Shown here one piece after another: positions 706 through 48,520 of a stretch of DNA of 64,000 nt. The translations under genes were made by a program, and so were the position numbers. The DNA lies in the NCBI RefSeq assembly GCF_000003815.2, contig NC_049982.1:7053596-7117595 (forward strand), written 5' to 3'. The notes below the pieces were generated by a model. The model was given only the letters and a program-made list of their open reading frames with translations, was not told the DNA's origin and did no database searches. The stretch comes from Branchiostoma floridae. Its lineage: Eukaryota > Chordata > Leptocardii > Amphioxiformes > Branchiostomatidae. Numbering within the stretch: position 1 is the stretch's first letter; every line of letters begins with the position of its first letter.

Positions 706-3498
706 ACGTAACGTTCCGAAGTACGGCGTGTCTGCGTGCTCCAAAATCCGTCGGATTCCCTACGAGTTCGTACGGAGGCGGTACTTACCACTTACGGATC
801 CCAAAAGATTGCCCACGTCTTGGCACGTAGACAGCACGTATTTGCACGTACGGCGGGTTGTGCCCTTCGCTTAAGCGAGGACCGGACTAGTCTCTCCCAG
901 ACTAACTACTCCGTCTATAGTAATATTAGTATAAAGAGAACAGCTGCCAGGGTAGCTTGGCATAGGGCCCACTGATTGACTCTATTGGCCAACTGTTCAC
1001 CCTATTTTTGCCAAATTCTACTATCCGTATCTTCGTACCAAGCAAAGCCCGGTGGAGGCTACTCATAATGTATCCTGTATAGGGTCTGGATACATTTGGG
1101 TAAACTATTACGTCATAGGGGGGCCATCACCAAAAATAGCTATAGATTATACCAATTTAAAATGCTATTGTAGTATCGAGTTGATCAAAGAGATATAGAT
1201 AGTGGGGTCTTTGCAATTGACACATATATGTGTTTGTGACCATACCTAAGCTCCCCTGTCACTGGAGGTTACTCACAAAAATTGTGTCTTAAGAAAAAAG
1301 ATCTTACTTCAGGCTACCATGGTGTCGTTGTGACAGCTGCGGCTTTATACAGGAAAGAACGCCACTGAAGTGCATTACTGAAATACGTAGTCCAGGAATA
1401 TTTTAAAAAAACATAGAGGATAGAGCATTCATTGAGGCCGCGGCCATCTAAGCCTTGAGAATAGTATAAGTACGAACAGTCACAAAACTGTAAGACATTC
1501 GTTCGTGACTTGTGACACAACTTTATGGATGATTTATCACCTACTTTTTATGGTAGATTCCTACGACGCAATGATTTAGAAAAATAAAGCGGTAAATCAC
1601 GATATACGTAAAATGCATCGACTACACTCTTTATAATTTCATTTATTCTATATTTGAAACAAATATCATTCATCATTCCCGCCCACAACATGCGTGACCG
1701 TGTATGTATTATATCATTCCACAACTTAAGCAGACTTGAAATGCCACCTAGCGATTCACAATCAAATTGCACGGCATCGCCTGCGGCATGAGCTTAGGTG
1801 ATGACGTCACTGTTGAAGCCCAGCCCAGCGCGTCCTTAACCCGGAATAACTTAGTCACTCTTCTGCATATACTATCGGGTGGTCTGGCATCGAAACCACA
1901 CGTTCGCTGGTGTTAGGCGGACTTCTTGGAAGGAAGCGACTTTATGTGCACTCATAACATGGCTGTGGACAGTTTCGGTGGACCAATGGTTTGCGGTTTG
2001 TCTTCTAGTGACGCAGAGCGTAGTTTAAGGGTGGAGACAGCGGGGATTTAAGGGCGTCACACGACAGTAGGTCGACTTCATACCACCAGGAAGGTAAGCG
2101 TCAGAGTCTCTTTGTCTTGTCAGTTGAGCTACTATCTTACGCGTATATCAGAAGGGGGTTTTGCGGGGATTTCCTGAATTCGCTTGATATTTACTGACGT
2201 CTCTGAAAGGCCTGAGCAATTTTCGTCGTTCTGTACCGTGAAAGGTCTTGTTGTTCTGTTTAATACTTGCGGTTTTGTTGCTCCATGGCTGACAGGATTT
2301 GGTTAGGGACGAGCCAGAAAAGGTTCCGTGAGGGGGAGGGTTACGTGAAAAAAGGACCTAAAGCAAAACGCACAATTACAATGGCGGAAAGAAGAAAAAT
2401 ATATACTCTCATAACACATGCGCATAATCAAAACTGCACTGCCGTTACCACAAGAGTTTCATATAATCCGTTATGTTATATAGGAAGGCGGAAGTAACGA
2501 ACAGTCAGGAAAGCATGTTTGAATATCCATAAATTTGATTTAAGTTGGCACGTTTGAAGAACACTCTAGATGCTATAGCCACAGCCGGCACTGTAAAGCT
2601 TATGTGAATTACGGTTTTACTATGGTTAATATTGACCGACGGAGGCCATATATAAGGGCTGAGATTGAAATAGAGGGTAGGTTATTGCCTAGAACGTTCC
2701 ACGCCGTTGTGTGTTATGTGTAATATATATCTAAACACTGACACAACGTATACTTCGTTTGCAATTGCAAATGTCTGCGTTTCCATTTCATCATGATTCG
2801 TGTTCACGCTGCCACGTACATGTACTATGATGTAACACAAAGGAGCACATAAATTATGCAGCTCCGATCTTCTATGACAATGGAGGTACCGGTAGCGATA
2901 CAGGGGCCTATTCTGGCCAACGTTTTGTTAAAGTACTAGTACAACAAATGAATACCACTCTTCCAGTTACAACTGACATATTTCAAACTCCAAGACAAAA
3001 TGGCGTCTAATTGTTGTGTTACCGCCACCTGTGTCATGCCTGTTGAACCAAGGGGATTTTCAGTCACAGACCCGATGGACGGGTCTTTGCTTGCTATCTT
3101 TCGATCAAAATTTCCCCCAAGCTATTCAAACATGTGATTTTTTAAGTCCTTCTATCTAATTATGCTTTTGTTTGCTGGATGGTATGCTCTGCAAGAAGTT
3201 GCTTCCTGGTGTCGTTTTCATGGGCGTGGCTGCTGTTCGCCTGGCCTCCGCATGAGGTCGTAAAAAGTGGATAGAAAGCCGACAGAAAATAGACGTACCC
3301 CAAAATAACAGCTACAAAATTCGGAAGGAATATCAGTTGCAATTGAAATCACGAAGAACTAATTGTATAGTATCAATTTTCACTGTTAATATTCATAGCT
3401 TTACGATCATCATTTCCTTACTGTGATTTATATCTGTGATTTATATCTGTAGGTTTTACTACTTTCTACCTCAACTTTTAAATCATCTACTAGTAACT
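706..3498. other. No gene recognised; upstream region of the NLR gene
   Basis: I see no convincing coding sequence here; the short open frames have no family resemblance. A stretch at about 2030-2095 ends in a good donor-like AAG/GTAAGC and could be an untranslated first exon of the NLR gene, but this cannot be proved from sequence alone. CRE-like TGACGTCA occurs near 1802. Confidence 0.4.
2649..2656 (+). promoter_or_regulatory. Possible TATA box
   Basis: TATATAAG followed by a purine-rich stretch lies about 1.1 kb upstream of the NLR start codon, on the same strand. A splice acceptor directly before the NLR start codon implies an upstream untranslated exon, so a promoter in this area is plausible. 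TATA-like strings are common by chance, so confidence is low. Confidence 0.2.
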
Positions 3499-3627
3499 GT
3501 TTTGCTGACATCCTGTATCATAAAACACTATGTACTACAGTTATGCAGGTCTTAACATTGTCATGGAAGTCGATGAGAGCTGTTTGAAGCGCCGCCTGGT
3601 GTACCTGTTGAAGTTTGAGGGTGCGAC
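3499..3627 (+). repeat. Degenerate tandem copy of the NLR first coding exon and its upstream flank
   Basis: The segment 3499-3627 repeats 3635-3790. Both begin GTTTTGCTGACATC, both contain an AAACACTATGTA block, and both continue into ATGGAAG...CGCCGCCT..., then CTGTTGAAGTTTGAGGG. The first copy has a start at 3563 reading MEVDESCLKRRLVYLLKFEG, very close to the real exon's MEEEESRLRRRLVNLLKFEG, but it diverges right after this and has no donor in register. It looks like a decayed duplicate start exon. Confidence 0.75.
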
Positions 3628-3729
3628 ACTTCCCGTTTTGCTGACATCTCGTATCATATGACCACATATAAACACTATGTATTACAGCAATGCCAGTCTT
3701 TACACTGTACTAACAGGAACCAGAGAGCC

Positions 3730-6700
3730 ATGGAAGAGGAGGAGAGTCGCCTGAGGCGCCGCCTCGTGAACCTGTTGAAGTTTGAGGGAGAAGACAGGGT
3801 GCGGCACTTCCTGAGAAAGACCCTCCCCGCCGCGCACGGCGCCTTTACGTCACTGACGTTATCTGACGTACTGCAGACCAACAAGTCCGTCATGGACGAC
3901 CTCCTGAACGGCACCAACGGGAGACGCAAGGTAAGCTCCAAGCAGATGTTAGGTGGTAAATCGTAGTATCTTCATACTGTTTCCTTTTTCTGGCACACGT
4001 CGGTTATGTAATTTAAGTCATTCTGGCACCAGATGGCTCATGGGACGGCGCCCATCCAGGTTTCTGTAACCCTTGGGCCACATAACATTATGCACAGTTA
4101 AGTAGTGGGTTAGTCCACTGGTAATATGTAGTGTGTGTTCAATCTTACTTGTCAGAAAAACGGAGCAGCCAGGAACCATTAAAATTCATCGTCCTTACAT
4201 CCGCATTCAGACAGAATAAGACTATGAGGAATTAATCTGACGGTCAGTAAGCGTATGGAGTTACGTCTAGATATTTTTGACTTTTGTTTGGTTGCTTGTT
4301 TGGTTGCTTGTTTGTTTGTTTGCTTGATTGATTGATTGTTTTGTTTGTTTAGTTTTTATATGTTCGAAATGCGTAAAACGGAAATAGACCCGCGGGTAGA
4401 CAACATATATGAAGGATATATGTTCATGTACTCGTATGACTGTATTTGGTTGTAAATGTGTGATAGTTTCACGGCCTCTTGTCCCTTCCTTTTCTGTCGG
4501 CACAATGTGTGTCAAGAGAGTTTAGACCAGGACTAAGTTGTAGGATTACGTTTGAAAATCCTTAACTTGAACTGCAATAGTGCTGCTGTGAATTGTTGAA
4601 ACAAGCATGTGAATAATTTATATTCCTGGTTATCACTATCCTCCCTTCCTACGCACAGGTGCTGAGCGGAGAACAATATGACCTCTTGTTTCCTGTAAGC
4701 GGTCACGTGAGCCCGGGATCTTTAGACATCGCCGTTATGTTCCTGCTCATTCGCTACCTGTGCCAAACAAGGTCAGTATAAAAACACAGCCGAGCGAGGA
4801 AAACCGGATATATTAGAAGCGCCTCGATCGCTATTATCCTACACCGTTTAGAGATTGAAAACTCTAGAGATAGAACCAAGGAACTTTCATAGAAGCATAT
4901 GATTAAAAGTTTTCACAGGTCTTTTTTGATTCGCAAGGAAATAATCACAGTTCTGAAGCAGGATATAGCCAGGTATGTTAGGTTTTGATGAAAGTACATG
5001 GAAATGGAGTAAATGAAGACCTGACATGCACAGTGATGTGTTAGATTTATCTGAAATTCGACAACCTTCGTGCTGTGAATGTGCTGCCTGTCAATATGAA
5101 CTTACATTCCTTCGTGTACTTTGGCCTCGCAGGTCCATTGCCTGGGAGGGCTGGGACGTCTACCCCTCTCCTACGCACAAAACACCGGTCCACGACATCG
5201 TACGGGTTCACAGCATATACCAGGACCTGGTCGTCAAGGCAACAACGATCGTGACGTCAGACAGTTTCAGCAGCCTGTGGGACGAACTGTCGTCTGCGAT
5301 CCTGAGACTAGGCGGCCTGAGAGACCGAGTGGAGAGGTGGAAAAATGAAGTACCGGCAAGTGAACTCCCCGCCAGGGAACGAGAACCTGACTCGTCCCCA
5401 GGTTCACCTGTGGGTGCATGTGCTGCCCCGGCCTCGTGGTCAGATCCCTATCCATCTGAAGGTCAGTGTGGACTCACAAGGTCATTCAGCTGCGAGTCAG
5501 ACGCCAGTTCGGAAGGCAGCGTGCTGTATTCAGGGGAAGGGCTGCCGCCTAGTGAGTCTACAAACCCCAAGCAGGCACAGCCAGGTAAGAAGTAGGGAAG
5601 AGTCGACGTGGAGTTCTTGTAATCTCCAAGCAGATCCTACGGTAGCAAACTACTGGCAAAGTAGTTAGGGCCAGCGTAGGATTTTGCATTGCCTACCGAA
5701 GTCGTTGACCAGGGTGTTCTCTGGCAGATCCTTTTGTTGCAATACACACTCATAGGCACTCTTTTACCAGCTTTTGATACTATCTTATGCGACCGTAGGA
5801 TCAGCTTGGAGATTAGCGTTTAACTTATTTTATTGGCGACAGACCTTTGTTTACTATCCCAAAGGGCTCTTCCCTTCATCAACATCGGGACGTTCATAGG
5901 TAAGGAAATAGTCTTAACTCCAATTGTCACACCTTAGCACGCTGATTGTCGTATATGATGATATACTGTTCTGAACTCAGTCTTTTTTAACGTCTTTCAA
6001 TCCAGCCAGTGCCGCAGCGGCCCCTAGCGGAGTTCAGCAGTACTACCTGAGCAACGTGCAGAACGTACAGATCGGCATGCAGACCCAGATGAGTATCGCT
6101 TCCGAAGGCTCGCAGAACAGAACTTCATCGGAGATAGCAGCAGGTATGACATCTTCGGTGCATAGTACCTCAAATGTTCAACAGTTACAACAGAAGCACA
6201 TGAGAAGAATTAAGACAAATTCAAACATTTTTTACGATGTTTTCCTTCTCTCTTTTTGTTGCAGCGTCAGATAAGCTAACGCTAGATGCGATACTCGCCT
6301 TTGTGATTCGAATCGCAGTGACATGACCTTACTAATGGCACTGTGCCATACATTAGTCTGCTTGTCACACAGCTAGGTATAATGTGGATGGTAGGACTAT
6401 GTGTGAGCAACGACATCCATAGAATGGGAGGGTCTTTTTAGCGAATGCCCACAAACGCCCACTCTAGAGAAGTCCGCGCTGCACGGATCTCATTTTTTTT
6501 GCTTGGAATATGTCCACGTTGTGCTCCCATGTATTAATCCTGAGTTTCAAGTCAATCCATTGACCCGAAGTGACATAAATCAAAGTTTTCGATTCTCGAT
6601 GGTCTTTTTAGCGAACGCCCAGCAAAATGTCTTTTTAGCGAATGCCCACTATATCCACAAAAATATCGGCCGTCGCGCAACGACACCTAAACCTACCGCC

Positions 6701-9700
6701 ACAAACATGTTCAAGATTGTGTCCCATTGATGTGTACGGAGTTTCCGTGCTTTACAAGCATTTTAAGTCCCTGTTTTTGGTCAAAATGTACGGCGACGAT
6801 ACTACCATACTTTAACTATAGCAATTCAAAATGGCGGGCACTAGTCATGTGACCTCCTTGCGGGACTGTTCTAGAAGTATCGCGGGAGGGACTGTTGTAG
6901 CATAGCTTCTCATACAACCATTTTAGAGTGAATTCTGAACAAGATTTTCATTTCATAGTGCTATCATCTGACTAATATTTACAATGTGGTCATTTTTTCT
7001 GTGCTATTATTACCCAGGTTTGAGGAACTTAGTGCAAATATGGATATTGATTCACCTCAGTGCCCAATTAATGTACAAAAGGCTCAGACACATTAGTGTT
7101 ATAAACCTGAATAGGGGCAGGTAACCAATGCTAGAAAAACATAGCTATTTATTATTAACAATACTATTTACATTATAATAATAACTCTTCACCAAACTGG
7201 ACTTTTCTTATCTTTATTTATCACAGAAACATTGTTACAATGAGGATTTGATTAGATGAGTATCTGTTACAGTGTGTACAAACTTATTTCAAATACAAAA
7301 ATGTATTTCGTTTCACTTCCTAAATATTTTTAAAGTATTGGAAGAAGTTAACACATAAACAATATTAATTGCATTATTTATGTGCAGTAAAATGTGACCA
7401 CATGCTATCAATAGCCTAATAAAATGTTGGAACATGGCACAAGCGGGCTCCTCTTCTGAGTACAGAAAGGAAATGTTTTATAACATTTAGTTATGACGTA
7501 GAAAATTTCAATTGTAAAATGTACCTTTATTAACATTTACAAACAAATTGTTTTTTTCTCTTATTAATAAATGACAACAATACAGGTAAGTAAGGTGTGT
7601 TTCCTTTTATAACAGGCCAGGTAAGACGCCGTACAGGTAAGTAAGGTGTGTTTCCTTTTATAGCAGACAAGGTAAGACACCGTACAGGTGAGTAAGGTGT
7701 GTTTCCTTGACTACAGACTAGGTAAGACACCTTACAGGTGAGCAACGTGTATTTCCTTTCATTACAGACCAGGTAAGACACCGTACAGGTGAGTAACGTG
7801 TATTTCCTTTGATTACAGACCAGGTAAGACACCGTACAGGTGAGTAACGTGTATTTCCTTTCATGACAGACTAGGTAAGACACCGTACAGGTGAGTAAGG
7901 TGTGTTTCCTTGACTACAGACTAGGTAAGACACCGTACATGTAAGTAACGTGTATTTCCTTTCAGTACAGACCAGGTAAGACACCGTACAGGTGAGTAAG
8001 GTGTGTTTCCTTGACTACAGACTAGGTAAGACACCGTACAGGTGAGTAACGTGTATTTCCTCTGATTACAGACCAGGTAAGACACCATACAGGTGAGTAA
8101 CGTGTATATCCTTTGATAACAGGCCAGGTAAGACACCATACAGGTAAGTAAGGTGTGTTTCTTTTTATAACAGACCAGGTATGACACCGTGCATGTGAGT
8201 AACGTGTATTTCCTTTGATTACAGACCAGGTAAGACACCATACAGGTGAGTAACGTGTATTTCCTTTCATTACAGACCAGGTAAGACACCGCACAGGTGA
8301 GTAAGGTGTGTTTCCTTTGTCTATAGACCAGATAGGGTATTATACAGGTGAGTAAGGCGTCTTTCCTTTGCCTATATACCATATAGGCCATCATACAGGT
8401 GAGTAAGGCGTCTTTCCTTTGCCTATAGACCAGATAGGGCATTGTGCAGGTGAGTAAAGCAACTTTCCTTTGCCTANNNNNNNNNNNNNNNNNNNNNNNN
8501 NNNNNNNNNNNNNNNNNNNNNNNNNNNNNNNNNNNNNNNNNNNNNNNNNNNNNNNNNNNNNNNNNNNNNNNNNNNNNNNNNNNNNNNNNNNNNNNNNNNN
8601 NNNNNNNNNNNNNNNNNNNNNNNNNNNNNNNNNNNNNNNNNNNNNNNNNNNNATCAAAGGAAATACACGTTACTCACCTGTACGGTGTCTTACCTGGTCT
8701 GTAATCAAAGGAAATACACGTTACTCACCTGTACGGTGTCTTACCTAGTCTGTAGTCAAGGAAACACACCTTACTCACCTGTACGGTGTCTTACCTGGTC
8801 TGTCATGAAAGGAAATACACGTTACTCACCTGTACGGTGTCTTACCTGGTCTGCAATCAAAGGAAAGCCGCCTTACTCATCTGTGCGGTGTCTTACCTGG
8901 TCTGTAATCAAGGAAATACACGTTACTCACCTGTACGGTGTCTTACCTAGTCTGTAGGCAAGGAAACACACCTTACTCACCTGTACGGTGTCTTACCTGG
9001 TCTGTAATCAAAGGAAATACACGTTACTCACCTGTATGGTGTCTTACCTAGTCTGTAGTCAAGGAAACACACCTTACTCACCTGTACGGTGCCTTACCTG
9101 GTCTGTAATCAAAGGAAATACACGTTACTCACCTGTACGGTGTGTTACCTAGTCTGTAGTCAAGGAAACACACCTTACTCACCTGTACGGTGTCTTACCT
9201 GGTCTGTAATCAAAGGAAATACACGTTACTCACCTGTACGGTGTCTTACCTGGTCTGTAATGAAAGGAAATACACGTTGCTCACCTGTAAGGTGTCTTAC
9301 CTAGTCTGTAGTCAAGGAAACACACCTTACTCACCTGTGCGGTGTCTTACCTGGTCTGCTATAAAAGGAAACACACCTTACCTACCTGTACGGCGTCTTA
9401 CCTGGCCTGTTATAAAAGGAAACACACCTTACTTACCTGTATTGTTGTCATTTATTAAGAAGAGAAAAAAACAATTTGTTTGTAAATGTTAATAAAGGTA
9501 CATTTTACAATTGAAATTTTCTACGTCATAACTAAATGTTATAAAACATTTCCTTTTTGTACTCAGAAGGGGAGCCCGCTTGTGCCATGTTCCAACATTT
9601 TATTAGGCTATTGATAGCATGTGGTCACATTTTACTGCACATAAATAATGCAATTAATATTGTTTATGTGTCAACTTCTTCCAATACTTAAAAATATAAA

Positions 9701-12700
9701 AATATAAAGATATTTAGGAAGTGAAACGTAATACATTTTTGTATTTGAAATAAGTTTGTACACACTGTAACAGATACTCATCTAATCAAATCCTCATTGT
9801 AACAATGTTTCTGTGATAAATAAAGATAAGAAAAGTCCAGTTTGGTGAAGAGTTATTATTATAATGTAAATAGTATTGTTAATAATAAATAGCTATGTTT
9901 TTCTAGCATTGGTTACCTGCCCCTATTCAGGTTTATAACACTAATGTGTCTGAGCCTTTTGTACATTAATTGGGCACTGAGGTGAATCAATATCCATATT
10001 TGCACTAAGTTCCTCAAACCTGGGTAATAATAGCACAGAAAAAATGACCACATTGTAAATATTAGTCAGATGATAGCACTATGAAATGAAAATCTTGTTC
10101 AGAATTCACTCTAAAATGGTTGTATGAGAAGCTATGCTACAACAGTCCCTCCCGCGATACTTCTAGAACAGTCCCGCAAGGAGGTCACATGACTAGTGCC
10201 CGCCATTTTGAATTGCTATAGTTAAAGTATGGTAGTATCGTCGCCGTACATTTTGACCAAAAACAGGGACTTAAAATGCTTGTAAAGCACGGAAACTCCG
10301 TACACATCAATGGGACACAATCTTGAACATGTTTGTGGCGGTAGGTTTAGGTGTCGTTGCGCGACGGCCGATATTTTTGTGGATATAGTGGGCATTCGCT
10401 AAAAAGACATTTTGCTGGGCGTTCGCTAAAAAGACCATCGAGAATCGAAAACTTTGATTTATGTCACTTCGGGTCTATGGATTGACTTGAGACTCAGGAT
10501 TAATACATGGGAGCACAACGTGGACATATTCCAAGCAAAAAAAATGAGATTCGTGCAGCGCGGACTTCTCTAGAGTGGGCGTTTGTGGGCATTCGCTAAA
10601 AAGACCATGCGCATTTGGGAATAGAAATGTAGATTTCATAATCTCTACATTCTCAACTTTCGAAACAAAGTACGGCTGCATAGGATGTGTACTACCAGAA
10701 ATATGTGTCGTAAAACACCGAATCTGAGCCATATCCTTACATCTGCTTGGAGATTTTCTGTTCTAAAAGAAGCCGTTTTTTGTCGTACTGTAGAGGATCA
10801 TCTGGAGCTGGTCCTGGCGTCCTGTCGGTCCGTCCTCCGTGTCGAGTACAAGCGGAACCTGAGCCGCATTCAGCCCCTGCCGTGGAACAGGAGCTTCTGC
10901 GTGCCGATAGATGACGTGTACACCAACCTGGACCTGCTGGAGGAGACCATGGAGGGCTTTAAGGTCGGTCTACGGAACTGCGAGTCCTTATCAGGACTGA
11001 GACCACAAGAATATAGAGTATTAATGTGTTGATCGGAAGTGTTGAGGGGGGGGGGGGAGGGTATGCTTTCTTCCAATATGGTACATTGGTTTTAACTGTA
11101 TTCGGTTTCTTGCACGTTCGCTTCTGTAGGACTTTGAGTACAATTATATCTGATATGCCATCACGACACAGCCCATTTATAAGCCCCCAAATTGGCCCAA
11201 AGCCTAGCTGATATGGCCTGCTAATGCGACAAGCAATGCAATTTCATGTGCTGTGGATAACTACACAGCATTGAGTCAGGAAAATGAAATACAGGCTGCA
11301 GTAATGTTAGGAAAAGTAGAAGCTTTATGCTAAATGGTCGATGATGGTAGTTTATGATATCGTAGGTACGAATATGTGCTAACATATCTGATGGGCGTCG
11401 CATCGTCGACTCTTGTATTCTTATCTGTGTTGCCTGTTGCCCTACCCAGGTTAATCGTGTAAGCCTTGCGTCCATGGAAGATATCTTCCGACCGAGGAAG
11501 AAACTGGGAAGGCGCCGGCCTCTGAGGATCGTGATGCAGGGTCAGGCAGGAGTGGGGAAGACGACGTCACTGACCAAACTGGCCGTGGATTGGTCAATGG
11601 AGAAGGTCCAGGCCTTAAAAAGGATCAACCTCACTTTCGTGTTGAGACTGCGTCTGATTGGTCAGGAAATGAGCATCATAGACGCCATCTTTGACCAGCT
11701 GATGCCGAAGGGTTTCCCCTTCACGAAGGAAGACTTGGCAAAGTGCCTGGTAGAGAAGCAAGACCAAGTGCTGATCCTGCTAGACGGGTACGACGAGTTC
11801 GACGCGGCAAGGTGCCCCGAAATCGCGGAACTGTTGAAGGGGAGGATGTATCCTAGGGCGGTCGTCATGACGACGACACGCCCATCGAAGGTTGACGAGA
11901 TCCAGCCCACAGCAGACACGGTGGTGGAGATCACCGGATTCTCACCAGAAAACGTGAGGCAATATCTGCAGCGGCATTTTCAAGGTCAGGGGGGCAAAGT
12001 TCAGGAGCTCCTGCAGCACCTGGAGCCACACATCGCCAACAGGGGCATCGCAACCATCCCGATGTTCACCATGCTCATCAGCGTGCTGTACGAGGACAAG
12101 CCTGACATCGTCCTGCCGGCAACCATCACCGGGCTGTACCAGGAACTCATGAGCTGCATCATCAAGCGGTACCGGGTTAAACATGGCGAAGGCGTAGAAG
12201 GAAGTGGAGACATGACTAGCGTACTAGAGGTTGTAAGCAAGGTTGCCTTCGAGTGCCTGTTGTCTGACAGAGTGTCCTTCGGAGAAGCGGATCTGCTAGA
12301 TAAGACCAAGGAAGGGCAGGTGGCAGAACTTGGCGTTTTCACTTACGACGATAAACAGGCGCACAGCAGGGTCAATGGCGGCCGCCACCTTACGTTCTCG
12401 CACAAAACCATTCAGGAGTACCTGGCTGGTTGTCATCTAGCCAGCATACTCACTACGTCAAAGAGGGAGACGAAGAAGTATCTGACTAGCCTCGACACAC
12501 TACAGCGTGCGTCCGAGTTGAAGTACGCCATCTTGTTCGCCTGTGGTACTTCGGAACGAGCAGCGACGGTGTTAATCGAGCATCTCCTCCGCATCTGGAA
12601 AAACTCTCCCGGCGAAACTAAGAAGCAGAAGCAACAAGACTTCGTCAAACTCAGCATGCAGTGTCTGTACGAGAGTAAGGCAAAAGACAGGATACAGCTC

Positions 12701-14851
12701 CCAGTGTTGGAACTGTTTCCCTCGGGGAAGGTCGAATTCTATGACGTGAGCGCCGATGTGGTGAAGTACCTCGCCCACTACCTGCAACACCTGAAACAAG
12801 TCGAGGCAGTCACCGAGGTGAGTCTGGGAGACGTGCGGGGCACCTCGCTCCAAGACGCCGACGATCTTGGGACAGCGCTGCAAGGTCTGAATGTCATGCA
12901 CACACTCCGAGTGTCTAGAAGTCCGCATTTCAAGATAAAGCCTATTATCGAGAAGCTTGAGAAAATGCCATCGCTCCAGCATCTGTATCTCTGTGGCATG
13001 AATCTCGGACAAGAAGGTAAGACGTTAGCTGTCGCACTGAAGCGAATGCACAGAGCAAAAAGAACACCCAGGACACTGCGCGTGGCAGACAACAACCTTT
13101 CCCAAGAGGCGTCGGAGTCGCTGCTGACGGCGATCGGAAAGCTGACTTCCCTGACAGATATAGATGTATCTGTCAATGACCTGGGAGATACTCTGGAGAC
13201 GTTGAGTGGCAGCCTTCAGCATTTGAGTGAGCTTCGAACCCTGAACCTCCGAGAGTCTGGCCTGACACAGAAAGCGTGTGTTGCGCTTGGAAGCGCGTTC
13301 AAGACGTGTCCGTTAGGTAATTTGGAAGAGTGTAACCTGGAGGGGAATCAAGTCGATGACCGTGCAAGCGTCCAGGTGCTGCTAGAAGGCTTAGGTGCCC
13401 TGATGAACCTGCGCAATCTCAACCTGAAAGGCTGTCGGATTGGGCCGGACGGCGCCGTGACGCTTTCGGGGAGTCTGCAGAAACTGGCTCACCTGAAAGT
13501 CGTGAATTTGGAAGGGAACGGGCTTGACCTTCGCGCTGCAAAGAGCCTGTTCACATCACTGCACCACTGCCCTGACCTAGAAACGGTCGACTTGAACACC
13601 AACTTTCTCGGGAGCCAGGGAGTTGGAGAGTTCGCTGCAAACTTCGAGAAGACTGGAAGTCTAACAAGTCTCAACCTGTCACACAACGTGGTGGGGGACG
13701 AGGGTCTGGAAGCGGTTTCGAGACACGCCCACCACCTGCAACACCTGCAGTACCTGGAGCTGAGTGACAATCCCGTAACGAACGACGGATTCGGGTAAGT
13801 TATAAATCATTCTTTCCTCACGCTGGTACCTCCTACTTTAGGGTAGATAATGCCACATAGTCTTCTCTTGACCTTGTGTTATCTTTGTTGGCTCAGTTTT
13901 CCGCTCTTCAAGCCATACTCTGCTCCCTTTCATAGATTAACCGGAATGTTTCTTCACAGGGCATTCTTTAAGAGTCTGCCCACGATGGCGGCCCTGAAGG
14001 AGTTGGATGTGTCCGGTCCGTACGGAGGCAAACTAGACGCGACTGACGACTGCGTGGAACACTTAGCACAAGCGTTGTCCAGGCTTCCAAGCTTAGAGGT
14101 ACGGCCCTCGACAATCAATTCAAACTCTTCTGTTTGAACTTCTTTTCTCTGTTTTATCTGAACTTTCTATCATTATATTCTATACTTTTCAGTTACAACG
14201 ATAACATTTCNNNNNNNNNNNNNNNNNNNNNNNNNNNNNNNNNNNNNNNNNNNNNNNNNNNNNNNNNNNNNNNNNNNNNNNNNNNNNNNNNNNNNNNNNN
14301 NNNNNNNNNNTTGCATCTCCGACGCGTTGCCATGACATCCGATGGGTTTGACACTTTCATGGAGGCAGCGGAGAGTCACGGCAAACTTACAAATGTGTCG
14401 TGAGTACATTATTCTGTACTATAGAAAAATTACATTTCCTAAAGAATTTTAGGAAGAACTTTTCACAGGACTGAGTCGTGTATACGAATTTGTACTCTTG
14501 TTTTGTGTCTCTTTATATCTATCTATTTTGTTCTGTAATATGGGTCAAGTGCCTGAAATAAAGCTAAAATAAATGAAATAAATGAGTGAGCTTATCGATG
14601 TGCCCTATGTGGCAGAGACTGCCATTCTCGTATAGGACTGTTTCGCCATAGCTGAAGCTGCAGGGCTGATATCAACTAGGATCTTACCATGGTCAATACT
14701 GCCATATTTACGGTATCAGTATTCATACTCCACAAAGATGTTGCTTTATCTGGTTTACTATAGACATCCTATCTTTTCCCACAGATACAGGAGGGAGAAT
14801 CTTCCGCCGCTGTCAGCCTACAGTGACTCCAAATTGTTGGTGCTCTGGTGA
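3730..14851 (+). CDS. NLR protein: HEPN_DZIP3-like, RHIM-like motif, NACHT, LRRs
   Basis: Cytosolic sensor of the NLR class. Coding exons, all phase-compatible: 3730-3930, 4659-4771, 5133-5584, 6006-6143, 10794-10963, 11450-13794, 13960-14098, an exon entering from the gap and ending at 14399, and 14785-14851 (stop TGA). An acceptor at 3715-3716 before the ATG suggests an upstream untranslated exon. Residues ~1-165 resemble the HEPN domain of DZIP3/hRUL138 (EQYDLLFPVSG, LDIAVMFLLIRYLC, LWDELSSAILRLGG). Residues ~165-255 are a Ser/Pro-rich linker, and 276-286 are a RHIM-like motif. A short exon carries the VYTNLDLLEETMEG linker. NACHT follows: P-loop GQAGVGKTT near residue 390, Walker B VLILLDGYDE near 465, then TTRPSKV. 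About ten LRRs of ~28 residues come after it. The protein has at least 1,237 residues. The 100-N gap may hide further LRR exons. Domain roles (oligomerising immune sensor) come from the NLR family; the ligand is unknown. Confidence 0.88.
4020..4142 (-). mobile_element. 3' part of a tRNA-derived SINE
   Basis: The minus strand matches the tail of the SINE copies at 16633 and 54981: a GTGGACTA...CCC block, then TGTGGCCCA, then GATGGGC(A/G)CCG. The tRNA-like head is missing. It lies in the first intron of the NLR gene. Confidence 0.65.
4275..4350 (+). repeat. Simple GTTT/GATT-type repeat
   Basis: Degenerate runs of TTGTTTGGTTGC and TTGATTGATTG form a low-complexity tract in the first NLR intron. 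Confidence 0.7.
5621..5814. mobile_element. Short TIR element (CTCCAAGCAGAT family)
   Basis: The left end AATCTCCAAGCAGATCCTAC (5621-) is matched by the inverted right end at 5792-5814 with one mismatch. The ~194-bp element has no coding capacity and lies in the third intron of the NLR gene, starting 37 bp after its donor. The same terminal motif recurs across the window. Confidence 0.75.
6065..6097 (+). other. RHIM-like amyloid motif encoded in its own exon
   Basis: Residues 276-286 of the NLR read VQIGMQTQMSI. This fits the RHIM core (I/V)Q(I/V/L)G followed four residues later by a hydrophobic residue, as in RIPK1, RIPK3, TRIF and ZBP1. The surrounding exon (6006-6143) is small, rich in Gln, Asn and Ser and low in charge, as expected for an amyloid-forming segment, and its boundaries are phase 1-1, so it could be inserted or skipped without shifting the frame. 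The function, death-type signalling through amyloid contact, is inferred from the motif only. Confidence 0.55.
7581..8476 (+). repeat. ~51-bp tandem array, left arm, made of splice-site-like units
   Basis: About 17 units of 50-51 bp. Each unit on the plus strand carries ACAGGTGAGTAACGTG, then the pyrimidine-rich TTTCCTTTGATTACAG, then ACCAGGTAAGACACC. So each has two strong 5' splice-site matches (CAG/GTGAGT and CAG/GTAAGA) and one 3' splice-site match, in the sense direction of the NLR gene. Two unit types alternate (GTAACGTGTATTTCCTTTGATTAC and GTAAGGTGTGTTTCCTTGACTAC). The long open frames across it arise only because 51 is a multiple of three. Confidence 0.9.
8477..8652. other. Assembly gap (176 N) at the centre of the foldback element
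   Basis: A run of N exactly where the two inverted arrays meet. Palindrome centres are hard to sequence and assemble, so the true loop sequence and size are unknown. Confidence 0.99.
8653..9441 (-). repeat. ~51-bp tandem array, right arm (inverted copy)
   Basis: About 15 units with the same sequence as the left array but on the minus strand, for example ACTCACCTGTACGGTGTCTT. The unit order near the outer end mirrors the left array, including the variant outermost units. Confidence 0.9.
14211..14310. other. Assembly gap (100 N) within the LRR exons
   Basis: One hundred N, the usual placeholder for a gap of unknown size. It cuts the start of the exon ending at 14399 and may hide more LRR exons. 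Confidence 0.98.
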
Positions 14852-17007: not shown

Positions 17008-17089
17008 TGGCAGCGGTGGGATTCGAACCCACGCCTCCGAAGAGACTGGTGCCTTAAACCAGCGCCTTAGACCGCTCGGCCACGCTACC
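17008..17089 (-). tRNA. tRNA-Leu (AAG)
   Basis: An 82-nt type II tRNA. The acceptor stem GGTAGCG pairs with CGCTGCC, followed by discriminator A. The anticodon stem CTGGT/ACCAG encloses the loop TTAAGGC, giving anticodon AAG. The variable arm is CTC-TTCG-GAG and the T loop is TTCGAAT. A TTTT terminator follows a few bases downstream on the minus strand. Confidence 0.96.
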
Positions 17090-17429
17090 TACGCGATGCC
17101 AACTTTACGACATGCAAAATATAGGCCTTAATGACTAACGTTAGTTACATTGGACATGAGTGGGAAAAGTGCCAAGGTAAACAATGATAAATCAATCACT
17201 TGATATCTTTGTCAGCTGTAAACTTGGGGTAGGCTGCTTAATTGACAGGCCATCGATGCTAATGTGTGGGATTTTCCTTACTTAGAGGCACCGTTAGTTC
17301 AATACATTGAAATACAGGCTGAAACTAACCTGCGAAGATGGCGTCGCGCTTCTCAGCACCCACCGACAAGGCACTTGTACGGAATGATCAGTCAGAGAAA
17401 TAGAAAATACATGTCCTGACCCTCAGTCA

Positions 17430-17502
17430 GATTCCGTGGTGTAGCGGTTATCACATCTGCCTAACACGCAGAAGGTCCCCGGTTCGATCCCGGGCGGAAT
17501 CA
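17430..17502 (+). tRNA. tRNA-Val (AAC)
   Basis: A 73-nt tRNA. The acceptor stem GATTCCG pairs with CGGAATC, with discriminator A. The anticodon loop CTAACAC gives AAC, and the B box is GGTTCGATCC. TTTT begins one base after the gene. It is identical to the copies at 18835 and 19487. Confidence 0.96.
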
Positions 17503-17810
17503 TTTTACTTTAAAAGGTTGTAAGTTCATCTGTTTGAAAATCTGCCCTATCATTGTAATACAACATAAACATCCTTCAGGGTCAATAAATCATACAAATA
17601 ACTCAAAAGAATAACATCTCAATAACAATAACAACTCAACGTTAAGTTACATCTGTGGTTTACAAAGACGATTAATGTTTTAACAGCATGAAACAGAAAA
17701 GTCACAAATTACCACAAAGAGAACACAAGAGAACTACCTATGCAGTAAAAACCGTGAATGACTTGCAATACTTAAGATAAAAGGACGGGTGGAGGGGGCT
17801 ACTCCCTGAT

Positions 17811-17978
17811 ACTGTAAATGCAGAAATGTTCGCGGGGGATTAATGTTCGCGGTTTTCGCGGTGACCACTTCACCGCGAACTTAAAATCACCGCGAATATT
17901 TTTCTATTATGGTATTAGATTGCAGTCTATGGTGTTACCGCGAAATTAAATCCCCGCGAACGTAAATGCATTTACAGT
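17811..17978. mobile_element. Palindromic MITE (ACTGTAAATGC...TTCGCGG family)
   Basis: The left end ACTGTAAATGC and the right end GCATTTACAGT are inverse copies. Inside are several TTCGCGGGG, TTCGCGGT and ACCGCGAA blocks in both orientations. Relatives without clean ends are seen at about 33553-33700 and 63143-63200. It lies between tRNA genes. Confidence 0.75.
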
Positions 17979-18067
17979 CAATCTTAACCCAAGTAAATAT
18001 TTAGAAATTTCACGTTTCAAAATCATCTGTTTTAAATCAAACTTTAAGGATCGGTTCACAAAAGAAA

Positions 18068-18149
18068 TGGCAGCGGTGGGATTCGAACCCACGCCATCGA
18101 AATGACTGGTGCCTTAAACCAGCGCCTTAGACCGCTCGGCCACGCTACC
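18068..18149 (-). tRNA. tRNA-Leu (AAG), second copy
   Basis: Same as the gene at 17008 except for four bases, all in the variable arm, which reads CAT-TTCG-ATG instead of CTC-TTCG-GAG, so pairing is kept. TTTT follows downstream on the minus strand. Confidence 0.96.
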
Positions 18150-18834
18150 TACATGTCGATATTAGTCTCTCAATACAATCTGCTAGGGCCTTATGCGTAT
18201 TAAGTCAAAGTCCAAGTTTCACGATCTGATTTAAAGTTTAATGCTTAATCGTCCCTGACATTCCTATGCCATGTAAGTGTAGAGAATATGATAGTGGGTA
18301 CCGGAATCGATACATAGTACTAGTAGTAGTAGTGAGAGCTATTTATAGAGCGCTTTTAATGGGATGGGTGGTTCGGCGGTATCAAAGTTCAAAACATTTG
18401 TTTTCATACGAAAACGAGTGAACTCACATACAAATCCACTGACCGCTCCCTTTCCTTTACAAACGTATTGTTGTTGTTGTCAAAAGAATCCGCGGCTGGA
18501 ATCCATGCAAACAATCGCGATGATGTCACAGTGACGCACATGGCAGGCAGAAAGCGTGTGGAAGAAAAATAAATAAATTACCAATTGATTTGTAATTTGA
18601 TCTGCTAATGTAAATAACTAGTGACCTAATCTGCTGACGTCCTGGTAGGCACCTGTCGTAGAATAACAACAAAAACAGCGAACAGTTTTTATTCATAAGA
18701 CCATGTCATATGGCCTACACGCATTGAAGAGCACGCAACAGGTGCAACGTATTGCATGTTGTCTGAAGCCGAAGGGCAAAGGTTACAGATACATCGGTCG
18801 TTATGTCAATATTTTTGCCTGACTGTAGCAAGCG

Positions 18835-18907
18835 GATTCCGTGGTGTAGCGGTTATCACATCTGCCTAACACGCAGAAGGTCCCCGGTTCGATCCCGGGC
18901 GGAATCA
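18835..18907 (+). tRNA. tRNA-Val (AAC), second copy
   Basis: 73 nt, identical to the copy at 17430, with TTTT one base after the end. The flanks beyond the gene are unrelated, so only the gene body is conserved. Confidence 0.96.
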
Positions 18908-19486
18908 TTTTGTTTTATAGTATGACATGCAATGTTTACATTCGCCAATGAGATTAACGTTATATTTCCGTGAGTGTGTTCCTGTGAACATCATAACTCG
19001 AGAACTAGTGAACGGATCTTAATGATTTTCTGTAGGTAGGATTGTAGGCAAATGTGAGGGAGGGAGGGACATTTTTGCAAAACGAATACTTTATTAAATC
19101 TTGATCCCTTAGCGGATTTCCAAGGTCCTGCAACAAAAATTCGGCTTTTGATATCTCTGTTCTAGACCGGCTAAGGTCACGATCTTTGGGTGGCAGATAT
19201 TCTTGTACAAGGAAAAAAGCAGTTTTCTTTGAAAGTGCAGAGACGTTTTTAGTTGCTGATTTTGAAACAGAATAATTCAAGAAGGGAAGAATAATTTTTT
19301 TTCAGGTTTATATTTTTGACGTGTATTTACCTTTGACCACGATCTGACCAAGCAAAATCGACAAACTACCTTCGCCATTTGTATATGTGTCCGATCTACG
19401 TACATTTTAGATAAAAGTACAGATGTATGACGGTTATCCCGCATTCACTTTCAATTCATTTTTCATTTTCTTAGCAGCCCGCACCC

Positions 19487-19559
19487 GATTCCGTGGTGTA
19501 GCGGTTATCACATCTGCCTAACACGCAGAAGGTCCCCGGTTCGATCCCGGGCGGAATCA
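19487..19559 (+). tRNA. tRNA-Val (AAC), third copy
   Basis: 73 nt, identical to the other two Val copies, with TTTT one base after the end. Confidence 0.96.
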
Positions 19560-35500: not shown

Positions 35501-38500
35501 GGACCAAATCCTTCTCACTACATTGCCACCTACATTATGCAGGTGCAATGCACGGGGAGTACTTGGCGAATCAAAATCAGAATTGACCTGAACAACTAAA
35601 CAAGGTATTAGAGGTACCTAGATACCTTCTGGGCCTGTGTACCTTAACAAATTTCAGGTACAGGTACAGGTACAGGTACAAGGGTTTAGGTACAGGTCCG
35701 AACCTGCACCTGTACCTAAAAAAAGTTTAACCAAGTATTGTAAGTTAAACATGTATCTAACTGTCTTTTCTAGTGGTAGATTGTCATCTTTGTATGGGGA
35801 ATTACATATTTGAATCTCAAAACAATTTCTTTGCAAGTTTTCGTAAGTTTCAACTGCAAGATTATCACCAATGTCATTGTTGATTCGGGATTTACTTGTC
35901 CAGCAGTCTTAAATTTAAAAAGTAGTGTTTAATAGTGATTTAGTTTGTTTAGGTACAGGTACAGGTACACAGATGTTCAGGTCCGGACCTGTACCTAAAC
36001 AATTTTTTAGGTACGATACAGGTAGGGTATTTAGGTACACAGCCCTATGTTGAAGTTCTGGCTGAGTGTGTACAAACAACATTCTTCTCTTATCAAATAT
36101 AGAAATGAAGTCCCAACATGAGCCAGACCTGGTGATCGTCTCCATACAGCCAGAGAACCTGCTGACAGCCGCGCCGCTCTGCCTCCTTCTGGATCCGGAT
36201 AGTGGGGCCGTAGTTACTGGAAATATAATGAGGACTGATTGAACTGACTCCTACAATTGAACTCTGTGCTGCTTACTTACTGCTTAAGTCAAGTCCATCC
36301 GGCCTCAAGTTGAAATGGCAGCCCATGTGTCCCTGTCAATCATTGCTCTATGTAAGTTGTCGACTTCCAGGCCTGTGTCATTCCTAAGGGTGTCTATGTG
36401 CAGAACTCTGTGCAGAACTCTGTATAGAACTGTTACAGCTGTACTGTAATACATAACTCACCAGTTATTTGAAGATACATGGGGGGTATTTCCGGTGCTC
36501 ACCATGGCAACTGCCCCGTGACAAACATCCCTTACGATTATTGTTCACATGTGCTGGTTCCAAGGATGAATATAGATGCATGTTACATGTTTCTGCAATC
36601 GGTGTATAATATGTGTATCATTCTTTCAGCTCGACCTAATGGCATCCATCTCATTCAGTGAAACATGTACTATAGAACTTTTTTGTTCTTTTCTGCTGCA
36701 AATTTTCTGTTACATGAAACAACCTTTGTACTGACATTATTGACAAAGAATTTTACTCCTTCCAAGATTCTTAGGATTAGGCTACATGACTGTGTACTTA
36801 ACTCAGAGTCAGGCATGGCTTAGGTGGTGACTCTAGGAAAAGGCCTTTTTACTATATATTCTATTAGCCTATTTATGGACATTACAACTTTATAATCAAT
36901 ACAAAATGCAGGCTACTGATTGGTTAACCAATTCTAACTACATGATAATAAAGGGATGTCCCGGCCCTATCACTCTGAGAAATGAACAGAAACTCCCACT
37001 CACGATCCGAGCTTGTAGTTCCCGACGCCTCCCCTGAAGGCACGGATGTACTGCGGGTCTGCCATGAGGGACACCGGGTTGAACGCTCCCGTCTTGAAGT
37101 ACGAGCCGACCGGACCCAGCAGCACAAACAACATGGCCTCTTCTGCCTGCGAAACTCCCAGGGTGGGCTGGGCATGAAAGTAGGCAGCAAAAAATTACAA
37201 AGAATTTAACAGAAACTCTCATAATTCTAACGGGTGCCAAAATACCACAACAAGAGAGAAAAATAAATGAATTTAAAGTGATTTAAGGAGATATACCAAA
37301 TGAATGCAGCATCAGTAATCCTGAGGTATATAACATACACTTCACTAGCTGGCAGATATTTAGGTGTTCAAGACAATCTTGATAAGGCCTCTAGAGCAAT
37401 TTTTTTTTTTCAGGTGATGGTATTATGGCACTTGATAGAATTGAGTGTTGATGTTACAAATTTCCTTTCGTACAATTAACTTAAAGATAAAATTTTTCCT
37501 TAAAATTTCTGTTACTCTATCTATATTTATATGATAGTGGTTTATACGAGCTCCAATGAATGGTGACCGAACAAGGTTGGATACTGGCAAATTTCAAACA
37601 CACACTTAGACAAGAACATTGTAAGCATGTCCTTTTTTCACTTAACTTTTGTTGTATATTCATCCGTCTACTGGAACCTGACAATTTCTGTAAAAGCTTT
37701 GATCCTGCCTCCAAACCTTACATACAAAACATTAAAGCAAAGACATCGAATCCTGACCCACCTCTGTGCCGATCATTGTAGGTCTGATGTACAAACTGCA
37801 GTCTTTAGCAGCTGGGACCCAGTCTTTGTCAACATCTATCAGCTTGGAGATGCACTGGATCAACTCTTCACCATCAAAATTCTGAAAGATTAAAAAAACA
37901 AAATAACAAACAAAAACAACAACAACATGAAATCAGAATACAGACATCTCGAACATTTTTCTCCATTCTACAACTGTATAAGCTTGTCTTTGTCATTTAA
38001 TCCTCGTGAGAGGGTAAACAACACACAATAACCCGCTGATAGTGGCTGTGGTAAAATTTCTGCAGTACCCGTCTTACTCTCTAGGAGGCAGTTTTTACTG
38101 CCAAGCTGATGCCCTGATTGGCCTGAACAGGAATTTGGGCATACTAGTACTAGTAGTCAGGAAAAATGTTTGAAAAGTGAAGAATGAAGATTATGTCAGT
38201 TTGTTATGGATAGCCACCCTTTGTATATTCTGCAATCCTTAACTTCTTAAGTATTTCTTCAAGTTGTTCAACTTCATGGCACAAATTTGCTTTAAAAAAT
38301 ATTACAGAGGTTGCAATAACATGTATCTCAAAATTTAACATCCAATGAATATTGACTGTGCATTGAAAGTACATTATGGACAAAACTGCATGCAGGGATT
38401 TGCCTGGATGTTGTCTCCCGATTACGCTATAACAGTCACATCTACAAACCAAGACCTGGACAGAAGCTTTTGGGAACCCGGAGAACAAAACACAAAGAAC

Positions 38501-45570: not shown

Positions 45571-48520
45571 GCGAATGTGCTAGAAGAAGGGAAAGAGGAG
45601 CCTGCAGAGAAGAGGGGAAAAAGGAGTTCTATCATACAAATGAAATACATTTGAATAATGTATTTGCTCATACATTGATGCATTGATGCATATGCTCACA
45701 TTATTAATAAGTTTGGTCACCTGAAAAAACTGAACATTATAGTTTTATACACAGCAGTACTAGTATCTCATCCTGAGGCATGGTACATCAAACAGTGTGA
45801 ACTTTTAGATGATTCCAAAGGAATCCTAACAACTCCTGAGTATCTGAGTATGAAGAAGTAGCCTGTAGCACAGATCAGGGAAGACTGTTAGAGGGAAGTG
45901 TCAGCAAAAATGCCAGTCCAGTAACTGGGTTTCAACATCCTTTTTTTAATGTACGGAATCTGTCAACTGAGGGCATTTAAGTACAACAGCCTCTACTACT
46001 CCACTACTAGACTAGTAGCAACTTAAATATCCATCAGAAGGTGTATCAAGGAACAATAGTATGCAAAAGACATAGTGTTATGAAGACAGTACATTCAGAA
46101 AAAGGTCTGGAAGTTCTTAATGCTAATTCAGTAATTGTTGTAAAACAGGAATAATTTCAGCACTTTTGATTCTATGTTGTCATAGATTCATTCTACTTAT
46201 ATAAATCAACAGCTGTCTTTGGCTGACATCCAAACAGAACTTGTTCTACAAAATCAGCTAAACTCATCATTTAGTTAACTGACTTCTTAAGTTACTTCTA
46301 GAAAGCTGGGAGATTCAACAGAGCACATGAAAAAAGTCCTTAGAATCCATAACATTTTTTTTAAAAACAGCGTGGGGCTTACTGGTTTTCTGGGAGAGAC
46401 TACTACAGGATGAGTACGGAACGATCAGCCGACCATCAGCTTTCCAGCGCTACAATTTATTGAACACTATGTTCTTAACGAGCCGAATCCATATGCAACA
46501 TTTCAAGAGCTTTCATTATGGTTATAACATAGTATCCCTGCCCGACTGCGGGATGTGCAGATACATGTGTCAGAGCACCAGAACCAGATACGCCGATATC
46601 TCCCTTCTTTCAACTAAGTAATGTACCAGGAAAAAACATCTTCCCAGCACTCTGACAAAACCCATTACATTCCGGGACCATTTTGCCTCTAAATTCCCAG
46701 TGAAGTGCAAGCCTTTATTGTGCCTGATTTTTATCTATCTGCGACTTCATATGCTTTTACAGGCGGGGTCAAGCTCAAGCGGCCATTTTGCCCGCGCCCG
46801 GAAGTGGCAGCGATAACCCGCAACACGTCTTTATTACGTGTACCTTGACTTTTGTGTGTCAGGAAGGATTGGTGCTTGGGTTGTGATTGATGCCCTCTCT
46901 TCCGCCATCAAAAGCGGTAATGCCGGGATGATATTCGCGACAAGATGGCAAGAAAAGGTCCTTTGTCAGGGTCTCGAGTCGGACCATCAATTTCGGTCCA
47001 TTTGCAAAGCCACCATGGGCCCTTTGTGGCTATAGCCATTCTTTCCTTTTACCTTTCATACGCTTGTTGATGAAAAAGACAGGAGGACGGCACTTTGTCC
47101 GTGGACAATCCGGCCAGCGATCAACGCGTTTTTGCGACACCCCCGATGAAGGGGACGTGCCATCTTTTTGTCTCCTGAATGCAAAGCTGTGACATCCCCG
47201 AGACAAAGGCCTTTGTGCTCTGCCGTGTATCATAATTCCGCCGCGCTAAACTTGTCCTTGATGGAGAGATGCGATAATAAAGTGCCTTTCACAGCTTCAG
47301 ATGTCATATCTGGACATCTCCGGCTCCTCCAGGGTCTTCTTTATCGGGACATTCTCTCCACTTTCTCCCCTTTGTGCTCCTGTATTTATTTATGGCTGGG
47401 ATTCGACAAAAGTCTGAATGGGGAATACAGAAGCATTGATCGATAAGAGGAAAGTATTCTCTAATGTAATGCCACAATCTTGAAGTGCTATCAAGACATT
47501 TTGTGGCTCTCTATAGCAACCGATCATTGCGGCGTTATCGGCCATTCTGCGCACTTCACTATTTTCCTTCATCTTACAAACTGTATAAAAAGGGGATTTG
47601 TGAAAGTTTCTGCAAAGTCATCAATTTCAACTCAAGCTCTTAAATCTTATTCTCAGCATAAGTGGCGCTGGTCCATATCATGGACTGCTGGGCACTGTAC
47701 ATGTACACTGTGTAACACACACATATGCTGTCTCCTACATGTTCTGGTGCGACAAATTGCTACGCACTACCTTTAAAAAAAGATAGGGAGAATTTGTGTT
47801 GAAAATTGTACAACTTAAAAAAAGGATTTGTACCTGTGGGCATAGTTTTTACAATGAAAAATTATTTCATCAAATTTTTCTCAGTAAGAAAATTTTCTTC
47901 TATAGCAGTACTAGTGTCAGTCTGTACAATATCACGCCTGTGCAATTGCTGGCCAATTTCAATTTGTTTAATTATCAACATGACCAAATTACTACAACTG
48001 AAAAGAAATCCAATTCCCAAAGGTATCTGCACTTCCCCTTGTCCAGTGCAGGTGGATGCATGCAATCTTACTAGCTGACTACACTGAGTTAACTTTTATC
48101 AGTTAACCCGTCACTTTGCAAAACTTTCTTCAAAGACAGCACCCTCCATCTCAGAGCTCCAGAGTTGAGTCCAGCCCCTTTATTTCTCCCCATCAAGCCT
48201 GGCACAGTTAGAGCAGGGTTTGCCTGTTCTGGCGGTATGGATTACCTGCTATGTGATGTGCAGCAGTGATAGAGAGCGGTCTGCTGAAGGTGGCGGTTAA
48301 AGAATAATGCATGTCATCCCCCGTGTCAGTTCCACGCGGAGCTGTCTCCCCGTGCCGGCCGACCGCCCCTCGCCACATTTGTACCGTTGTCACATTCGCC
48401 GGCCGTGACTTGGCGGCCGCCCGGCCCCGCTCCTATCTCCTGGGTTGATGAACGAGGAGATCTTCCACCAGTCGGTGTCGCTGCATCTGTCTTGTATCTT
48501 CCGCTGATCTGGGCCGCATC
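45571..48520. other. Gene-free stretch with a promoter-like block
   Basis: No coding gene is supported. From about 46690 to 47580 the base composition is more even and GC-richer than around it, as in conserved or promoter DNA. Confidence 0.35.
46779..46810. promoter_or_regulatory. Promoter-like cluster: YY1-type and ETS-type sites
   Basis: CGGCCATTTTG (YY1-type) is followed within 10 bp by GCCCGGAAGTGGCAG (ETS-type CCGGAAGTG) in a GC-rich stretch. This pair is typical of housekeeping promoters. It lies about 5.4 kb upstream of the first seen BCAT exon, which has a splice acceptor before its start codon, so it could drive BCAT. Confidence 0.3.

Follow-up and report, generated by a model that had tools for sequence, protein, structure and literature searches.

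A foldback element with inverted arrays of splice-like units in an amphioxus NLR intron, probably a non-autonomous Mutator/Foldback-type transposon

We analyzed a stretch of 64,000 nucleotides of the amphioxus Branchiostoma floridae (assembly GCF_000003815.2, contig NC_049982.1, positions 7,053,596 to 7,117,595 of the forward strand), hereafter the window. An intron of an NLR gene in the window is largely occupied by a foldback element, in whose arms lie two inverted arrays of short tandem units rich in splice-like signals. The element belongs to a mobile family that occupies more than 100 places in the genome and is clearly of transposon nature. The reading we favor, as somewhat better than an even bet, is a non-autonomous DNA transposon of the Mutator/Foldback type that carries a passenger minisatellite array.

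The two halves of the element share 94.7% identity across 1957 aligned positions, and the outer 909 nt of its arms are 99% complementary. Both the foldback structure and the ~2-kb hairpin described in a first-pass annotation of this DNA were thus borne out. Only the end points, placed there at 6431 and 10606, had to be moved: judged by the terminal motifs GGGAG and CGCAT, the tips lie 5 bp further out (Table 1). The arrays, which had been held not to be random satellite, are indeed regular, with units of 50-51 bp. The host gene lies on the + strand and gave profile matches to HEPN_DZIP3, NACHT and leucine-rich repeat (LRR) domains. Its exons join in frame across the element into 1073 stop-free codons, in agreement with the earlier placement in an NLR intron, and the element makes up 90% of the 4650 bp of that intron. 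Note that a strong acceptor-like site (score 86.5), 120 bp into the intron and upstream of the element, opens a short in-frame alternative last exon of the NLR gene at 6265-6325.

To the first-pass annotation's proposal that the element be counted in the genome, a search of 513 Mb in 431 contigs gives an answer. At up to one mismatch, 121 GGGAG and 129 CGCAT ends were found, and reversed-pattern controls for both motifs gave no match genome-wide. Some 120 copies are therefore spread through the genome, and the family is not peculiar to immune genes. We paired the first 100 listed ends of each motif by nearest neighbor within 1-12 kb. The 80 elements so obtained spanned 1.1-11.2 kb (median 4.1 kb), and 79 of them combined one GGGAG with one CGCAT end; 20 GGGAG and 21 CGCAT ends remained unpaired. 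A separate search with the left array gave 189 candidates (40 scored) and 154 matches, and those listed were grouped by eye into 40 loci including the window.

We then read 33 further copies, 20 chosen by array match, 11 from the end-motif list and 2 by arm and end matches. Among the 31 copies read at both ends, 27 bore one GGGAG and one CGCAT tip, as does the window copy. The near mirror-image arms nonetheless keep two distinct tips. A perfect 9-bp target-site duplication (TSD) flanked 18 of the 31. Two had a 9-bp TSD with 1 mismatch (L022, L049), two a 10-bp TSD (L021, L050) and one an 8-bp TSD (L043); in L028, 8 of 9 bases agreed with a shift by one, and no TSD was seen in L013, L026, L027, L039, L040, L045 and L048. 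The arms matched at both sides over positions 1-1150 in most fetched copies, with some interrupted or shortened; the left ends of L019 and L025 fell outside the fetched stretch, and arms were seen at both sides in all copies but these two. The number of array units differs among copies, and the small copies L039 and L050 have 7 units in one direction and 5 units, respectively. In L010, which has no gap, the oppositely directed arrays join in a short palindrome, and in L012, L013, L016 and L022 the last units of each direction are 36-39 bp apart. That the window element is an assembly artefact, a false inverted duplication around its 176-N gap, might be suspected from the central position of the gap and the missing TSD. 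This is scarcely credible in view of many independent copies of the same plan, several of them gap-free, and of the NLR exons that continue in frame across the element.

Most copies contain little besides arms and arrays. No stretch of at least 150 bp other than arm or array was present in 22 of the 31, and in 4 there were N gaps alone. Foreign-looking inserts occurred in 5 (L021, L026, L028, L046 and L048); four open reading frames (ORFs) of these inserts, two in L048 and one each in L021 and L026, had no Pfam match at E<=0.1. The insert of L048 (positions 3237-6218 of that copy) is about 3 kb long, lies in the right arm and contains two neighboring - strand ORFs of 338 and 288 codons. CATTAAT is repeated at both of its borders, and it looks like a nested insertion, perhaps another transposon.

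The Mutator (MULE) superfamily makes TSDs of 8-11 bp (PMC6446971), and the family described here shows both TSDs of this size and long terminal inverted repeats (TIRs). It also shows the hallmarks of Tm1, a family of the Mutator/Foldback kind from root-knot nematodes (PMC3169594), in that its two ends differ in motif and its TIRs contain variable numbers of tandem units. Like our copies, Tm1 has a 9-bp TSD, composite TIRs and non-coding copies, and most of its copies have a different terminal motif at each end (24 of 39 and 20 of 22; PMC3169594). The likeness is one of layout; the Tm1 motifs are 7 bp long and of other sequence, its units measure about 14 bp with 1-9 per TIR as against ~51 bp with splice-like signals here, and some Tm1 copies encode a Phantom-like transposase (PMC3169594), whereas no transposase copy was found for our family. 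Moreover, the ungapped copies that we examined are palindromic to their center, unlike Tm1 as described. Tetris, a foldback element of Drosophila virilis, likewise has TIRs in which a single-copy domain lies outermost and a tandem-repeat domain further in, has an 8-10-bp TSD and is apparently non-coding, but has 220-bp units, a middle domain and three structurally complete copies (PMC4079207). The MULE-related Rehavkus resembles the family in being Mutator-like with a minisatellite inside the element; it differs in that the minisatellite precedes the 3' TIR, the transposase has a PHD finger and the hosts are insects and annelids (PMC6446971). Galileo shares long, internally repetitive TIRs but is assigned by its transposase to the P superfamily. 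Its TSD is reportedly about 7 bp. The family thus fits the Mutator/Foldback kind represented by Tm1 and Tetris, as a new, non-autonomous member; full Mutator membership waits on a transposase with GGGAG/CGCAT ends. The family stands out by what its unit contains and by its palindromic center. In the open-licence literature, no paper joined amphioxus, foldback and terminal inverted repeats.

To describe the unit content, donor-like sites were scored with a Shapiro-Senapathy matrix and acceptor-like sites with an approximate matrix; both derive from vertebrates. The left array contains, on the + strand, 38 donor-like 9-mers scoring at least 85, 29 of them at least 90. By comparison, 200 dinucleotide shuffles of the left array had a mean of 1.66 sites of at least 85 (maximum 6), and their density in sequence beyond the arrays was 0.52 per kb and strand. 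Acceptor-like sites of at least 75 number 17, or 19 per kb versus 2.3 outside. These counts match the first-pass estimate of roughly 30 strong donors and 15 acceptors pointing in the NLR sense. No donor-like site of at least 85 lies on the opposite strand of the left array, and the right array has none of at least 80 in the NLR sense; three acceptor-like sites (9566, 9906 and 9930) are present in the right arm in this sense. As composition, then, the splice-like sites exceed chance, but an array multiplies the content of its unit, so that the 38 sites amount to a single unit of independent evidence. Donor-like letters also occur at 35655-35697 in the window, in a CAGGTA simple repeat.

The outer (A) units read CAG/GTRAGTAA...TTTCCTTTGATTACAG/ACCAG/GTAAGACACCGTA, that is, a donor, about 30 nt on an acceptor, and 5 nt on a second donor. 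The would-be 5-nt microexon ACCAG noted before is therefore present. In the inner (B) units the first donor and the pyrimidine tract are kept, CAG has become TAG and the second donor is lost. A C at column 12, present in 100 of 301 distinct units, creates a TAAC branch-like core 22 nt upstream of the AG. AG/GT junctions resembling recursive splice points occur as described, whereas an upstream pyrimidine tract was recognized by eye only before the first unit (7552-7585). Introns within a unit (~30 nt) would be very short, as would exons of 5 or 21 nt; from the spacing of the sites, introns of ~81 nt that skip a unit would be possible. The short donor-acceptor distance, the 5-nt microexon and the complementarity of the left to the right array, which makes pairing between them possible, speak against a stepwise-splicing ladder, one of the roles first proposed for the array.

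In the explanation that we favor, a Mutator-type transposase acting in trans would read the two unlike ends together with the repeats of the CTTTTTAGCGAA motif, gene conversion would keep the arms alike, and the array would grow and shrink inside the arms. The array is most likely a passenger minisatellite, and this is the weakest step. By chance its unit may have included two donors with a pyrimidine tract and an acceptor between them, with copying and conversion keeping the units uniform. The window copy would have landed in the NLR intron and should be removed along with it. In transcripts U1 may bind to the array with no productive splicing as a result, the possible exons (5 or 21 nt at the shortest) and the introns within a unit being too short and the two arrays being able to pair.

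What would count for a working array is conservation of its splice-like bases, and this was analyzed in 301 distinct units from 21 copies (2 of 303 were dropped for length). Class A is defined partly by the second donor itself, and 27 of the 301 units belong to neither class yet are counted under all units. A mask of 29 splice-like columns, drawn after the units had been viewed, was compared with its rotations around the unit. Several observations weigh against a non-autonomous transposon with a passenger array. The splice-like columns had the lowest mean entropy of 51 rotations both in A units and in all units, with the mask drawn post hoc, and no mirrored rotation reached that value in either set. 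The GT of the second donor is present in all distinct outer units, partly by class definition. The consensus of outer units differs from that of inner units at 10 places, none of them in the first donor or the pyrimidine tract (hypergeometric P=0.010, again with a mask drawn post hoc). All 34 copies (33 read copies and the window) contain array units, and none was read without them. The window copy has no TSD, its flanks being CCATAGAAT and CATTTGGGA. Lastly, a transposase gene with GGGAG/CGCAT ends was not found. The genome has 27 places with a MULE domain; of these, 26 (all but that on C139) were checked for position against the first 100 listed of the 121 GGGAG and of the 129 CGCAT ends, and none lay inside a listed element, the nearest being 3.6 kb outside one (C18) and 10.7 kb away. 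The TIR motif was absent from the MULE-domain places L029-L038.

Other results of the same analysis point the other way. In B units the splice-like columns ranked only 6 of 51, and 6 mirrored rotations reached that value. Ranked by dinucleotide among 50 in A units, the GT of the second donor was 1st, the acceptor AG 5th and the GT of the first donor 13th; in B units the latter two ranked 41st and 17th. The acceptor AG is present in 69% of distinct inner units, and the diverged copy L039 has lost it in 3 of 7. We also divided the changes into 80 old ones, among 33 common units, and 395 young ones, from 261 of 297 rare units. Of the old changes 40% fell in splice-like columns and of the young ones 49%, with an even expectation of 57%, and both sets ranked 2 of 51 rotations for avoiding these columns; the difference between them was not significant (Fisher p=0.18). 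Young changes are expected to be largely neutral; that they, too, avoid the columns points away from selection and to unevenness in mutation or conversion. The rotation test, with its mask drawn after the units were seen, is no more than suggestive, and we read the pattern as mild unevenness and not as shown constraint. The expectation of the first-pass annotation, that splice-like bases would be preserved above others, holds weakly: it is borne out by outer and by all units, less so by inner units and the first donor, and old changes lend it no significant further support. A hairpin within the unit was rejected as a cause of conservation, dimers of three unit types folding no better than shuffles (z 0.90, -0.72 and -0.04).

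The tentative alternative that we take most seriously, though unlikely, is a working U1 array. U1 suppresses polyadenylation (PMC6199362), and the small nuclear ribonucleoprotein of U1, bound to the many donors in the 5' half of a transcript that crosses the element, could suppress premature polyadenylation at AATAAA in the AT-rich arms. This would make intronic insertion cheaper, in either orientation, and so help the family to spread. The inverted layout would suit such a role, giving in the window copy one sense array whichever strand is transcribed. Pairing with the 5' end of U1 is stronger for four types of array site (-9.4 to -13.8 kcal/mol) than for the host donor (-7.2). Five AATAAA per strand are present, all in the arms beside the arrays, and the constant presence of units and the first rank of the splice-like columns would also agree. 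However, AATAAA is no denser in the element than outside (about 1.2 per kb in both), old changes show no significant extra protection of the splice-like columns, inner units lack the second donor, and the small copies L039 and L050 have few or one-sided arrays. In a stronger form, which we consider rather improbable, the array would be a working organ for spliceosome docking, a mirror-symmetric bank of U1 sites that can be read in either direction. If true, it would coat the first half of the nascent transcript, prevent truncation, mis-splicing and folding into silencing double-stranded RNA (dsRNA), so that residence in the introns of busy genes would cost the element little.

The array sites could instead act as decoys or as a source of alternative exons, competing with weak host sites and producing aberrant NLR messages. 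The intron's own donor (83.7) and acceptor (67.3) score below most array sites, 17 acceptor-like sites lie in sense, and in maize Ds1 three donors and two acceptors are used in exonization models (PMC5432752). Ds1 is likewise a transposon with several donors and acceptors, but it has five sites and not tens, belongs to the Ac/Ds system, and its abstract mentions no arrays (PMC5432752). No transposon with tens of splice sites was found in the open-licence literature, as judged from titles and the beginnings of abstracts. We regard a decoy role as doubtful: the shortest exons that could form would have 5 or 21 nt, the two arrays are complementary to each other, and the strength of the sites depends on matrices derived from vertebrate data. 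More doubtful still is a function as dsRNA source, in which the hairpin of a read-through transcript would give rise to small RNAs or editing and silence the family, possibly the NLR gene as well. The long alignment of the arms would permit it, but nothing in the sequence sets this element apart from any foldback element. Note that these judgments are not mutually exclusive; the U1-array, decoy and dsRNA readings can hold together.

Copy L028 splits a coding exon. Its left flank ends in an open frame and its right flank continues with a transporter domain (frames at 1301-1411 and 6533-7283 of the copy, open on both sides of the element), and the peptide joined from both flanks can be aligned with proton-coupled folate transporter across the insertion point (query residues 8-224, E 1.3e-17). 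The split gene thus resembles that of this transporter (SLC46). Such a copy, with splice-like signals inside, might be thought an introner-like element, one that makes its own intron on landing in an exon. Introners have their splice sites at or beside the element ends (PMC9860276). In L028, the one exon copy, no donor of at least 70 was found in 1201-1500 around the left end, and L028 therefore does not look introner-like; the array signals lie more than 1 kb inside the element. At 18 insertion sites there was no excess of open frames, the spanning frames averaging 91.1 codons compared with 91.3 at random window positions. We consider this alternative very improbable. An exon preference of the family was likewise not seen at the 18 sites. 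A Pfam scan of 10 of the 47 flanking ORFs of at least 110 codons found a domain in 5.

Equally improbable is that the array encodes a peptide of 17-residue repeats on the strand opposite the donors. Frames starting with ATG reach 343 (L013), 309 (L024), 277 (L017) and 271 (L026) codons, and that of L013 does translate as 17-residue repeats. However, a random 17-codon unit is stop-free in ~44% of cases per frame, so that 1-3 open frames of 6 are expected; 2 of 6 are observed in A and 1 of 6 in B units, and 50-bp units break the frame.

The family bears on the open question of how transposons survive inside genes. Its ~120 related elements, with differing numbers of strong donor-like sites, form a natural dose series, in which the two-armed copies present an array in sense whichever way they are inserted. 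Two different 5-bp ends, strictly paired on otherwise mirror-image arms, offer a clear handle on how a Mutator-type transposase reads the polarity of an element. As a separate observation, two copies have a MULE transposase domain 3.6 kb beyond their right end (C18:7781501-7785398 and C18:7856700-7861100, the latter L052). The two places are 75 kb apart and perhaps reflect a segmental duplication.

Table 1. Coordinates of the foldback element and of the surrounding NLR gene parts in the window
Feature	Position	Strand	Basis or remark
Whole foldback element, 4186 bp including 176 N	6426..10611	.	End motifs common to family
Terminal motif GGGAG, left end	6426..6430	+	Motif match
Terminal motif CGCAT, right end (ATGCG on +)	10607..10611	-	Motif match
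Left single-copy arm, 3 copies of the CTTTTTAGCGAAYGCCC motif (cores at 6435, 6605, 6632)	6431..7580	+
Left array, 17 whole 50-51-bp units and a part	7581..8476	+	38 donor-like sites of at least 85, 17 acceptor-like sites of at least 75
Assembly gap, 176 N	8477..8652	.	Meeting point of the arrays in examined ungapped copies (short palindrome or spacer)
Right array, 15 whole units and a part	8653..9441	-	Antisense to NLR
Right single-copy arm, inverted copy of left arm	9442..10606	-	Alignment
NLR exon with HEPN_DZIP3 domain	5017..5584	+	Open from 5017; start at 5017 putative
NLR exon 5' of element	6006..6143	+	Frame joining
NLR exon 3' of element	10794..10963	+	Frame joining
NLR exon with NACHT and leucine-rich repeats	11450..13794	+	Domain matches, frame joining
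NLR intron holding the element	6144..10793	+	Donor CAG/GTATGA 83.7; acceptor ...GTAG/A 67.3

Elsewhere in the window, five tRNA genes are found at 17008-19559, three tRNA-Val(AAC) on the + strand and two tRNA-Leu(AAG) on the - strand, with equal scores within each kind; at the gathering thresholds of Rfam, tRNAs alone were matched in the window. On the - strand at 48517-48915, three copies of a 132-bp unit lie in an open frame of 186 amino acids that has no Pfam match. Finally, a perfect 334-bp tandem duplication (100% match) is present at 50064-50733, either recent or an effect of the assembly.

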